Shown one piece after another: positions 4,842-54,668 of a DNA stretch of 64,000 nucleotides. This stretch comes from Gottschalkia acidurici 9a (GTDB lineage Bacteria > Bacillota > Clostridia > Tissierellales > Gottschalkiaceae): positions 248,001 through 312,000 of the forward strand of contig NC_018664.1 of the NCBI RefSeq assembly GCF_000299355.1, read 5' to 3'. The notes below the pieces were generated by a model that saw nothing but the letters and a program-made list of their open reading frames with translations, made no database searches and had not been told where the DNA came from. How positions within the stretch are numbered: the stretch's first letter is position 1; every line of letters begins with the position of its first letter. The translations under genes were made by a program, and so were the position numbers.

Positions 4842-4851
4842 GATGATAAAT

Positions 4852-5406
4852 ATGAATAACCTTAGTATAACAACTGTAAAAGGTCAGATAGGTATAGACA
4901 CAGCAAGAGGTAGTTATAGTATAAGACAACCTAAGGGAGAGCAAAGTATAACTCAAAAATCTGCAAAAATGAATATAGATAAACAAGCTCCTAAAGTAAT
5001 AATAGACCAATACGACTGTTTTGCGGAGGTAGGTTTAAAAAATAATATAGATTTTATAACAGAAGTGGCCCAATTAGGTAAGCAAGCGGCAATAAAAGCT
5101 ATAGGAAGAATAGTAGAGGATGGAAATCGTATGGCTATGATACAGAAAAGAATGCCGCCAGCCATACCAGAGCTAGCAGAAAAAAACTCTAGACCAACTC
5201 AGTACGAGTTTAATTTTAAGTTGATACCAACTAGTAGACCAAAGATAGATGTAGAAGGATACCTGAATATAAATTGGGAACTGGGAGGAGCAGAAATAAG
5301 TTATTCTCCTAAAAAACATGAAATTGATTATAACTTAGGAAAAGTGAATATATATATGAAACAGTACCCAGAAATAAAATATCAATATATAGATGATAAA
5401 ATATAA
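4852..5406 (+). CDS. DUF6470 family protein (YviE-like)
   Basis: Protein of 184 residues related to B. subtilis YviE, which sits in the same place between flgL and fliW; its biochemical role is not known. ATG 4852 is preferred because the GATAGGATG purine stretch at 4836-4844 is correctly spaced from it; an in-frame ATG at 4843 would add three residues but would sit inside that site. The N-terminus is rich in S/T/Q (LSITTVKGQIGIDTARGSY), the middle is helical, and the C-terminus has a conserved-looking IDVEGYLNINWELGGAEISYSP stretch. No signal peptide or membrane segment is visible. Synteny (flgL - this gene - fliW - csrA) supports a flagellar role. Family assignment is from recognised sequence and gene order. 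Confidence 0.75.
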   Translation: MNNLSITTVKGQIGIDTARGSYSIRQPKGEQSITQKSAKMNIDKQAPKVIIDQYDCFAEVGLKNNIDFITEVAQLGKQAAIKAIGRIVEDGNRMAMIQKRMPPAIPELAEKNSRPTQYEFNFKLIPTSRPKIDVEGYLNINWELGGAEISYSPKKHEIDYNLGKVNIYMKQYPEIKYQYIDDKI

Positions 5407-5435
5407 AAAATCTACTAAGTTGGAGAGTGAATAAA

Positions 5436-5876
5436 ATGAATGCTATAGCAAAGATTGATGATGAACAGGAAGCTATTGAGGATAAAAAAATAAAGTTTAT
5501 AGACGGAATACCGGGATTTGTTGAATATAAAAACTATATAATAGAACTAAATGAAGACAGCGAAAATCCATTTCATAAATTACAATCAGTAGATGAGCCA
5601 GAGCTTTCATTTATTATAGTAAATCCTTTTTTATTTAAGGAAGACTATGAATTTGATATACCTAAATCAGCTATAGAAAGACTAGAAATACGGGACAAAA
5701 GCGATATATTAGTATACTCAATAGTAGTAGTGCCAGAAGATTATACAAAAATGACAGCGAACTTACAAGCACCTATCATAATAAACACTAAAAATATGAT
5801 AGGTAAACAAGTAATACTTAATGAAAATATATATACTACGAAGCACTATATACTAGAAGAAATGAACAAAGAATAG
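5436..5876 (+). CDS. fliW: Flagellar assembly factor FliW
   Basis: FliW binds flagellin in the cytoplasm and, when released, binds and inhibits CsrA, linking flagellin translation to secretion (established in B. subtilis). The protein shows the family's FIDGIPGF motif near its N-terminus and the NPFLFKEDYEFDIP and NLQAPIIINTKN segments. ATG 5436 is chosen because TGGAGAG at 5421-5427 is about ten bases upstream; the in-frame GTG at 5427 is inside that site. The length, about 146 residues, is normal. It is followed at 12 bases by csrA and then by fliC, so the three partners of the regulatory switch are contiguous. Confidence 0.95.
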   Translation: MNAIAKIDDEQEAIEDKKIKFIDGIPGFVEYKNYIIELNEDSENPFHKLQSVDEPELSFIIVNPFLFKEDYEFDIPKSAIERLEIRDKSDILVYSIVVVPEDYTKMTANLQAPIIINTKNMIGKQVILNENIYTTKHYILEEMNKE

Positions 5877-5888
5877 GAGACTAAGTAT

Positions 5889-6218
5889 ATGCTTATATTG
5901 AGTAGAAAAAAAGGTGAAAGCATAATAATAAATGGAAATATAGAAATAACTATAGCTGATATACAGGATGGAAAAGTAAGAATTGGAATAGAAGCACCTA
6001 AGGATGTAGATATACATAGACGTGAAGTTTATGAAGCAATACAAAAAGAAAATAAAGAAGCTATAAGTAATAAGAATGTAAACTTAAATATATTTAAGGA
6101 GATTTTCAAAAAAATTAAAAATATATTAAAGATACTTTTTAAAACACCGATAAGTATATTAAGAAGGCAAGGAAGCCTTCAAAATAAAATTCAAGGAGGA
6201 AATTACAATGAGAATTAA
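5889..6218 (+). CDS. csrA: Carbon storage regulator CsrA with C-terminal extension
   Basis: RNA-binding translational repressor. Residues 1-60 are a typical CsrA ([20 protein letters not shown], then [23 protein letters not shown]). The family is usually 60-75 residues; this one has 109. The extra C-terminal part is a basic amphipathic stretch ([20 protein letters not shown]) and a tail that reads through the fliC promoter, the fliC leader hairpin and the fliC ribosome binding site, overlapping the start of fliC by 11 bases. The extension may therefore be largely a by-product of packing fliC control signals into the gene, although the amphipathic helix could have its own role. The preceding fliW stop is 12 bases upstream; co-transcription is likely. 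Confidence 0.94.
6127..6153 (+). promoter_or_regulatory. Sigma-D (sigma-28) type promoter of fliC, inside csrA
   Basis: TAAA at 6127-6130, exactly 15 bases, then ACCGATAA at 6146-6153, one base off the GCCGATAA consensus of sigma-D promoters. The predicted transcript would begin near 6160, giving a leader of about 48 bases before the fliC ATG at 6208. The whole promoter is within the csrA coding sequence. Confidence 0.75.
6163..6200 (+). promoter_or_regulatory. CsrA binding region in fliC leader: GGA-loop hairpin plus GGA-containing Shine-Dalgarno
   Basis: GAAGGC at 6163-6168 pairs perfectly with GCCTTC at 6175-6180, presenting AAGGAA in the loop; a GGA in a hairpin loop is the classic high-affinity CsrA site. 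A second site overlaps the Shine-Dalgarno AAGGAGGA (6193-6200). The two-site layout matches the hag leader known in B. subtilis. CsrA binding here would block flagellin translation. The structure is read from sequence; binding is inferred. Confidence 0.7.
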
Positions 6219-7914
6219 TAACAACTTATTAGCTATGAATACTCATAGACAAATGGGTATAACAGGTACAAATCAATCGAAATCAATGGAGAAATTATCT
6301 TCAGGATTTAAAATCAACAGAGCTGGAGATGACGCAGCAGGATTAGCGATCTCTGAAAAAATGAGAGGACAAATCAGAGGTTTAAACATGGCTTCTAAAA
6401 ACTCTCAAGACGGTATATCTCTTATCCAAACAGCAGAAGGTGCATTAAACGAAACTCACGCAATCCTTCAAAGAATGAGAGAGCTTGCAGTTCAAGCAGC
6501 GAACGATACTAACGTAACTCAAGATAGAGGAGAAATCCAAAAAGAGATCAACCAATTAACTTCAGAAATCAACAGAATCGGAAATACTACAGAGTTCAAT
6601 ACAATGAAACTAGTAGATGGTAGCAGATCAAAAGATTATGAAGTAAATGCTGCAGTAACTACACCTGGAAAAACTGTTTCAGTAACAAAAGCTGTAGATC
6701 AAACAGTTCTAGTTGGAGATGAGCCAGTTGCATGGAGTAATGATACTTCACAATCAAAATTTGATGTAAAAATTAGTGGTAATGGAGACAATGGATTTGA
6801 CTGGTCTACACTTGACGCAACTGGTACAAATAAAATAGTTGTGTCACGTTCAGGTGATGACTTTACAGTTGACTTTGATGGAAAAGATGGAAGTGGTAAA
6901 ACTTTAAAAATTGATGCCGAAAAAATGGTGTTTGATGCTTCTACTTCAACATATTCATATAAAAACCAAGGAGTTGAATTCTCTTTCACTGCAGAAGATG
7001 TTGCAAATTGGGCAAACACAGATTCATTTACATTAGATTTAAATACTATTGGTGCTGATGCAACAGGAACACATACTTCTGTTGCTCAAAAGGTGGCTTT
7101 AACAGTAACTGATCCTGATACAACTACTTCAAGCATGTCATCAATAACTGTAACAGAAGCTGCTGCACTTCAAGATGTTGCTAAACTTGATATAGCTTGG
7201 GATGAGGCAGCAGGAAAATTCACAGCAACTTCATATGACGGTGCAGGGACTCAAGTTTCTAAAACAGAATTTTCACTAGCTGCAGGAGAGACTTTAAACT
7301 ATAATGAAAATGGAATTTCTTTCACATTTAATGCTGTTGCAGGTGCAACTAACGCAGCTACTGTTAATGGATCATTTGAACTTAAAACTGAAACTAAAGA
7401 TGTAGTGAGTGAACCAACAGTAACTACACCAGCTGATACAGAAGATCGTTCACTTACATTCCAAGTTGGAGCTAACGAAAATCAAGCAATGTCATTAGAC
7501 ATAAATGATATGAGATCTGTAGCTCTTGGAATATCTTCAGCAAAAGCTGGAGCAGGTTTTGCTAGTGATAAATCTGTTACTGACGGAACTGACAATACAG
7601 CTGCAGAATATTCACTAGACGTATCAAGCCATAAAGCAGCAGCAGCATCTGTAACAGTTATCAACAATGCTATAGAAAAAGTTTCAGCAGAAAGATCTAA
7701 GCTTGGAGCTGTTCAAAATAGATTAGAGCATACTATCAAAAACTTAGATACTTCAGCAGAAAACTTACAAGCTGCAGAATCAAGAATTAGAGACGTAGAT
7801 ATGGCTAAAGAAATGATGAATTTAACAAAACAAAACATACTACAGCAAGCTGCTCAAGCAATGCTTGCGCAAGCAAACCAAGCTCCACAAGGAGTACTTC
7901 AATTATTAAGATAA
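6208..7914 (+). CDS. fliC: Flagellin, filament subunit
   Basis: 568-residue flagellin. Residues 1-145 are the conserved D0/D1 segment ([58 protein letters not shown]) and about residues 465-568 are the returning conserved helices ending in [19 protein letters not shown]. The centre (about 150-450) is a variable Thr/Ala/Asp-rich beta domain exposed on the filament. There is no signal peptide and no cysteine, as expected. The start is ATG with a strong AAGGAGGA site at 6193-6200. Codon use is richer in C-ending codons in the conserved ends than in neighbouring genes, consistent with high expression. Control is likely by sigma-D and CsrA/FliW (see the leader features). The fliB gene just downstream suggests lysine methylation of the surface. 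Confidence 0.97.
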
Positions 7915-52709: not shown

Positions 52710-54668
52710 TATAGCTATAAATAATGTGAAGGGGAACTTATATAGATATATAATGTATTATTTAAGCAATTCCTTTGCAGTAAGTGCATTTTTTTATTTG
52801 CTAATTTCATATTTCATCCATCTTTAACCAGCGATACTATTGCTCAAAGTGAAACTATTAAGCTAGGAGCCGTACAGGGTATGATAGCTAGTCAAATCAT
52901 AATAGTAATATTTTCAATACTATTTGTAAGCTATTCTACATCTATATTTATAAAGTCAAGGGGAAAAGAGTTTGGACTTCTATCATTGTTTGGAATGACT
53001 AAAAGTCAAATAAGAAAATATGTTTTAATAGAAAATACTATAATATCTATATTATCTTTAGTAACAGGATTAGTGACAGGAGTTATTTTTCTAAAATTGT
53101 TTCTTATGATAATGGAGGTATTTTTAGATGCAGAAATGCTGTTTAATGTATCATTAAAAGCAGTAGGAATTACTTCTCTGATATTCTTAGCTCTATTTGA
53201 AATAATAAGTGCCATCATGACTTTTCAAATAAAGGGAAAAGAAATATCTCAACAATTAAAGTCTGATAAAGTACCTAAAGTAGTACCTGAGTTTTCTAAA
53301 ACGAAAGCAATATTAGGAATAGCACTTATAGTAGTTGGATATATAGTAGCCTGGAATGCATATGATGTAGTTGTGATAATAGCTATGTTACCAGTAATAT
53401 TTATAGTGTCCATAGGAACGTATTTTACATTTACTCAGCTTAGCATAGCAGTTGCCAATAAAATTCTTAAAAGCAAAAAAGTACTATATAATAAAATAAA
53501 TATTGTTGCTTTTTCTCAAATGATATTTAAACTTCAAGATACAGCGAAAGTACTTTTTTTAGCATCCATATTAGGAGCTATTACAGTTACAGCTACGGAA
53601 ACAATGTACTCTCTTTTACAAGAAGCAACTATGATGACTGAAGAGGTTGGCAATCAAGATATTACCTTATTTAGAGAAAAAGAAAATGTAAGAGATAAAC
53701 AATCTATAGTAATGATAGAAGAGATACTTAAAAAGCATAAAGTAAGTATAATGGAGTCTAGAGAAGTAGAAGGTATTATAGCTAAGAATGAAACTGCACA
53801 AGAAATAAAGGGAAATAACTCTAGAGAAACTATAGAGAATTTTCTTTTAATATCTAACTCAAAATATAATGAGCTTGCTAAATCACTAGGAAAAGAGCAA
53901 ATAAAAGTTAACGAAAATGAAGTGGTTTACAACTATCCATATAAATATTTATCAGGAGTAGAATTAAATGAAAAAAATAAGATATTTAAAAATAATAAAC
54001 TAAAAATAAATCTAAATGGCGAGTCAAAGGAATTTAATCTGGATAAAGAGATATATGAAAATCTTAGTAGACTAAGCATGAAAGGATATAGTCATATTCT
54101 TGTGATGAATGATTCTGAGTTTAACGATATATCTCAGAAAACTAAAGATGAAAATAAAGTCTTATATAATGAGATAAAGTTAGATAACTGGAGACAGTCT
54201 TACAATGCTTCAAAAGAAATAGGAGAAGTATTAGGAGAAAAGTATCAGGATAATTATTATTCAAAATCTATAGTATATAGAATGATAAGAAATAGTTTTG
54301 GAATGAGTTTATTTATAGGATTCTTTATAGCATTCTTATTCCTTATTGCGGCAGGAAGTATAATATACTTTAAGTTATTTAATGAGTTAAAACAAGATAG
54401 TATGGAATACAATATTTTAAGAAAAATAGGAACTACTAGAAGTGAGATAAATAGAATTATAACTAAACAAATAGCAGTTATTTTCTTCCTACCATTTTTA
54501 GTAAGTACATCACACTCACTATTTGCATTAAAATCATTATCAAATTTAATGGGCAGAAATCTTTTTACTAATGGAATTTTAGTAGCAATAGGATATTTAG
54601 TTTTTCAGATAGGATATTTTTTCATAATAAGAGGCATGTATATAAAAAGAATAAAATGTATGGAGTAG
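52696..54668 (+). CDS. BceB-type ABC transporter permease, frame break near the N-terminus
   Basis: ATG 52696 (after CGGAGGTGGG) begins MKISNIAINNVKGNLYRYIM and runs into a stop at 52828-52830; the family continues in another frame from about 52790 (NFIFHPSLTSDTIAQSE, then QIIIVIFSILFVSYSTSIFIKSRGKEFGLLSLFGMTK) to 54668. One extra T in the T7 run at 52789-52795 would fuse them into a protein of about 657 residues, the normal BceB length, with ten helices: a FtsX-like block of four near the N-terminus, a large extracellular domain between TM7 and TM8 (about 290-520), and final helices. The full protein is probably made if the shift is a sequencing error. Confidence 0.82.

Follow-up and report, generated by a model that had tools for sequence, protein, structure and literature searches.

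The window, by which we mean the whole stretch of 64,000 nucleotides that was analysed, carries the gene order fliW-csrA-fliC, with fliW and csrA adjoining the flagellin gene according to Pfam. As sequenced, csrA and fliC overlap by 11 bases, the fliC ATG being at 6208. The genes and the features around the overlap were as follows.

5427–5876, forward strand: fliW (CsrA antagonist), 149 aa as listed; Pfam FliW 1.1e-42
5889–6218, forward strand: csrA as sequenced, 109 aa; Pfam CsrA 5.2e-25, with the domain covering residues 1–52 only
Residues 76–109 of CsrA, forward strand: private extension (CsrA has 56–83 aa at the 88 other loci of the order)
6108–6114, forward strand: A7 run needed for the extension (CsrA would have 76 aa with A8 and 79 aa with A6)
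6127–6152, forward strand: sigma-D-type promoter motif TAAA-N16-CCGATA, from the sequence; a similar motif stands in the leaders of relatives
6163–6180, forward strand: predicted first CsrA site (BS1-like), a 6-bp hairpin with loop AAGGAA; found in 19 of 20 leaders
6193–6199, forward strand: Shine-Dalgarno AAGGAGG, from the sequence, and predicted second CsrA site (BS2-like)
6208–7914, forward strand: fliC (flagellin), 568 aa; Pfam Flagellin_N 3.8e-46 and Flagellin_C 1.3e-30

The csrA product belongs to the CsrA family (PF02599), with 87.6 bits against a Pfam cut-off of 27. The flagellar gene row also includes, directly before fliW, a gene of the uncharacterised DUF6470 family (4843–5406). An earlier note on this DNA had placed a promoter, a hairpin and a Shine-Dalgarno within the csrA frame. 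Its coordinates were right, and every element is present in the sequence.

The promoter motif consists of TAAA (6127–6130) and CCGATA (6147–6152), separated by 16 nt. The hairpin stem is formed by GAAGGC (6163–6168) and GCCTTC (6175–6180), and its loop AAGGAA (6169–6174) has GGA inside. A second GGA site overlaps the Shine-Dalgarno. The RNA from 6158 to 6225 folded with −9.9 kcal/mol versus −3.41 kcal/mol (sd 1.83) in shuffles, which is 3.55 sd better, and none of 200 shuffles was as good. When the 48-nt leader was shuffled by mononucleotides 20,000 times, a perfect stem of at least six pairs around a GGA loop arose 15 times. Synonymous recoding of the extension was the stricter test, and here a comparable stem appeared in 566 of 20,000 recodings (~3%). 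Searching Rfam at E values up to 10 gave three matches, all far under the family cut-offs, which were taken as chance.

The conservation of the leader was checked in the order. Searching the proteins of 249 genomes gave 89 with a CsrA, counting that of the window, and one csrA locus was taken from each. Loci in which fewer than 320 bases separate csrA from a flagellin downstream made up the leader set, 20 in all with the window counted. In 19 of these leaders a hairpin presents GGA in its six-base loop, which ends 29–38 nt before the flagellin ATG, and the Shine-Dalgarno (CAAGGAGG or CAGGGAGG) was likewise present in 19. One locus (L205, genome G193) has a divergent CsrA of 63 residues and a flagellin 88 nt downstream, and it lacks a GGA-loop hairpin in the expected position. 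A looser sigma-D pattern was found by script in 18 of the 20 csrA-fliC leaders. The two misses were L205 and the window, whose search range had been clipped by its csrA stop; by sequence, the window also has the motif. This conservation among relatives supports a sigma-D-type promoter before fliC.

Base pairs were counted by script after L205 and one duplicate stem had been left out, which reduced the 20 leaders to 19 and then to 18 distinct stems. The three inner pairs form in all 18, with a T-G wobble in a single case. Pair 3 is G-C in 16 stems and A-T in 2, and pair 4 forms in nine stems with six pair types. In total, 75 stem pairs were counted, whereas shuffling the 3' arms 10,000 times gave 66.9 on average. 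Only 26 of the 10,000 shuffles reached this total, a figure that is not a true probability because the sequences are related. By these comparisons, the order of the window can be added to the known range of the two-site CsrA flagellin leader, and the predicted stem shows compensating changes. The earlier proposal that fliC has a CsrA leader with two sites and, going by the position of the motif, a candidate sigma-D-type promoter is supported. In six loci (L085, L086, L091, L092, L101 and L108) the leader is longer and has an extra GC-rich inverted repeat, e.g. CGGCCG or CTGGCCAG as read by eye, downstream of the sigma-D motif and before the CsrA hairpin. This repeat is absent from the window's leader.

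In Bacillus subtilis, the gene order is also fliW-csrA-flagellin, the flagellin has a sigma-D promoter and the hag leader is intergenic. The window resembles the Hag-FliW-CsrA homeostasis system in having two predicted CsrA sites, one of them over the Shine-Dalgarno, as described for the hag leader (PMC7652899). It differs in that its leader apparently lies inside the csrA frame. For the fliC 5'UTR of Clostridioides difficile, BS1 (TGACAAGGATGT) and BS2 (CTAAGGAGGG) have been predicted (PMC8523840), and the window is similar in the two-site layout, the BS1 core and the Shine-Dalgarno. The overlap reported for C. difficile is one of 10 bp between fliW and csrA (PMC8523840), whereas the apparent overlap of the window is between csrA and fliC. 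The nearest of the relatives compared (G003, locus L002) shares TTAAAG-N15-CCGATA, the GGCAAGGATGCC hairpin, CAAGGAGG and identical first fliC codons with the window. In contrast to the window, its CsrA has 75 aa, and 112 nt separate csrA from fliC.

By homology with these systems, a sigma-D RNA polymerase would start a transcript near 6160. Its short leader would carry the CsrA hairpin (BS1) and the GGA-containing Shine-Dalgarno (BS2), and a CsrA dimer sitting on both sites would block ribosome binding. FliW is described as releasing CsrA as flagellin is exported (PMC6529632). Free FliW, released by flagellin export, would likewise be expected to remove CsrA from this leader. The earlier note had also proposed that CsrA may limit csrA through the site. 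This found no support because the site lies, judging by its position, at the far end of csrA and not at its ribosome-binding site.

Our reading as a whole (confidence roughly 0.83) is that the stretch is an ordinary CsrA-controlled fliC leader; its nesting in csrA is more likely a homopolymer undercall than real. The earlier claim that the leader is coding DNA of csrA holds insofar as the frame is open from 5889 to 6218 as sequenced; it hangs on the length of a single A run. The part of the note that took the nesting for a regulatory design is not supported by the comparison with relatives.

In the order, a CsrA of 109 residues occurs in the window only, and the commonest length is 76 residues (22 of 89). 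A flagellin was found behind csrA at 26 loci; at the other 63, the fetched stretch contained no flagellin, and several of these stretches stop at a contig end. The gap was at least 88 nt in 25 of the 26 loci, and the window alone showed an overlap. Among 80 loci of a wider collection, 43 had a flagellin within 400 nt; the smallest gap was 93 nt, there was no overlap and the longest CsrA had 95 aa. In a sample of the class, CsrA was found in 135 of 393 genomes, and 43 loci were examined: the 30 best matches and 13 with a long open frame (98–124 residues), one of which duplicates one of the 30. A flagellin was found at 21 of the 43 loci, with a smallest gap of 134 nt and no overlap. A CsrA of ~104 aa from elsewhere in the class (L238) was considered as a second case of nesting and rejected, as no flagellin was found beside its csrA with a profile that was made from the flagellins already collected and can miss divergent ones.

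DNA in dual use would show a coding frame that is conserved or constrained over the element. The extension was found in none of the 88 relatives, a comparison in which the genus is represented by the window's genome alone. The earlier note had held that a variable hairpin beside a conserved extension would count against its idea; the opposite was seen, the hairpin being conserved and the extension not. A literature search for a promoter inside csrA or a csrA-hag overlap found nothing pertinent among the entries it listed. As far as the compared sequences go, the nesting is a private feature of a single assembly.

The extension depends on the A7 run. The csrA genes of two family relatives close with a TAA after ...FKK and ...LKK; at this point the window has TTC AAA AAA ATT. 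With A8, csrA ends in ...FKKN at 76 residues and leaves a spacer of 89 bases, which is close to those of the family relatives (96 and 112). With A6, CsrA has 79 residues. Of the run lengths A5–A10, the frame continues into fliC with A7 and A10 only.

The design reading also rests on this A7 in a genome sequenced by 454 that has other frame breaks at A/T runs. Gottschalkia acidurici 9a, formerly placed in Clostridium (PMC5737214), was sequenced with 454 Titanium, with manual editing of the assembly and Sanger reads for the remaining gaps, and has replicons of 3,105,335 and 2,913 bp (PMC3519856). A 400-kb sample of this genome was set against 320 kb from a relative in the same family. Conserved frames were broken in three distinct places among 185 ORFs of the window's genome and in none among 186 ORFs of the relative; four rows of the comparison reduce to three places, as two paralogous queries matched one of them. 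The places are G000:C2:206504–206540, 215648–215684 and 300776–300809, the last being 52776–52809 of the window. Judged by the relative's copies, the broken genes encode an ATP synthase delta subunit, an FtsX-type permease and an M23 peptidase. Each break falls on an A/T run of 6–7 bases. One base more in the run led to a single continuous match, and one base less did not; at one of the places, either of two A6 runs would restore the frame. The broken genes are probably due to undercalled runs, though they could in principle be real pseudogenes. Undercalled homopolymers have also been described in a finished clostridial genome, that of another species sequenced with PacBio (PMC4687164). In the compared coding DNA, run errors would amount to ~2 of 70 A7/T7 runs (~3%, from two events) and 1 of 238 A6/T6 runs, with approximate denominators in both cases.

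Because this error rate per run is low, a real loss of the csrA stop is a serious rival. On this account, the stop was truly lost by slippage in the A run or by a small deletion, and CsrA has 109 residues with a tail that is merely translated leader, harmless and unselected. It opposes only the undercall and is compatible with the leader part of our reading. It takes the sequence as deposited, and it fits a spacer that differs from the nearest relative's by deletions at the same place. A natural event at the spacer is plausible because these deletions lie there. Moreover, leader frames are fairly often open by chance: over the same length, no stop interrupted 10 of 57 leader frames in relatives or 51 of 576 intergenic frames in the window's genome. 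Open reading through the window's leader is therefore not remarkable, and a single InDel would suffice for the stop-loss. The CsrA of L238 shows that a similar length occurs elsewhere in the class with no flagellin found beside it. Against the stop-loss stand the lack of a long CsrA in all 88 others of the order and the short A/T runs that break other genes in the same assembly. With a spacer changed by deletion and a frame that happens to be open, real stop-loss is too frequent to dismiss.

As to the run itself, we lean towards A7 being a one-base undercall of A8, with a real CsrA of 76 residues that ends 89 bases before fliC. A real and recent stop-loss of whatever consequence is given rather less credence, and a selected function is a small part of that. 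Both weightings are judgements, not computed odds. The stop-loss in the specific form set out above, with a harmless tail, is a possible but clearly less probable account than the undercall. If the nesting is real, it is most likely a by-product and not a conserved design.

The idea that the nesting is both real and functional is a good deal weaker, and we regard it as quite improbable. Extending the idea of the earlier note, it says that ribosomes completing csrA are coupled to fliC, that they disturb the hairpin, and that the tail, lying near the FliW-binding C-terminus, alters FliW control. The overlap of csrA stop and fliC start as sequenced would suit such coupling, but the extension is absent from the 88 relatives. 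Most fliC mRNA would moreover be expected to lack csrA because fliC has its own sigma-D-type promoter.

The codon score of the extension was 0.083 per codon, a value inside the coding range, as 8.6% of coding chunks score no higher. This appears to favour a functional tail but is no better than the score of open intergenic frames of the genome. A score as high was reached by 26 of the genome's own 51 open intergenic frames and by ~3 of 57 leader frames of relatives, the latter scored with the codon table of the window's genome. Stop-free off-frame pieces of genes never reached it (0 of 107). These pieces had hinted at a coding tail and were rejected as the wrong null, since open intergenic frames score as high in half of the cases. 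The score is undecisive because these frames, judged the fairest null, score so high; it gives no clear indication that the tail is old and functional. Nothing was found in favour of a conserved function of the extension.

The weakest alternative, that the hairpin is a chance product of csrA codons with no role in CsrA binding, can draw on the ~3% of recodings with a comparable stem but is hardly tenable, as 18 relatives have such a hairpin in the equivalent position, where it lies outside csrA and shows compensating changes.

The undercall, if it is one, means that one homopolymer call in an AT-rich pyrosequenced genome can mimic an overlapping-gene design. It is unlikely that the 109-residue CsrA is real in the sense that its C-terminus, near the FliW grip, is encoded by the very leader that CsrA represses, with csrA termination coupled to fliC initiation. 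Were the 109-residue CsrA real, a mutation of the RNA switch would alter the protein too, and real nesting would make CsrA an unusual regulator whose tail and target site share bases.

The strict sigma-D pattern was also searched genome-wide. It gave six matches, as did the reversed pattern (no excess), and the motif was used as positional evidence only. Three of the six matches stand before flagellar genes and three elsewhere, with gene names assigned by eye. Besides fliC, the flagellar matches are L250 (G000:C2:246801), a sigma-D-type motif before an FlgM-like ORF that lies 1.2 kb to the left of the window, and L249 (G000:C2:217500), which lies before basal-body-rod-like genes and behind an mreB-like gene.
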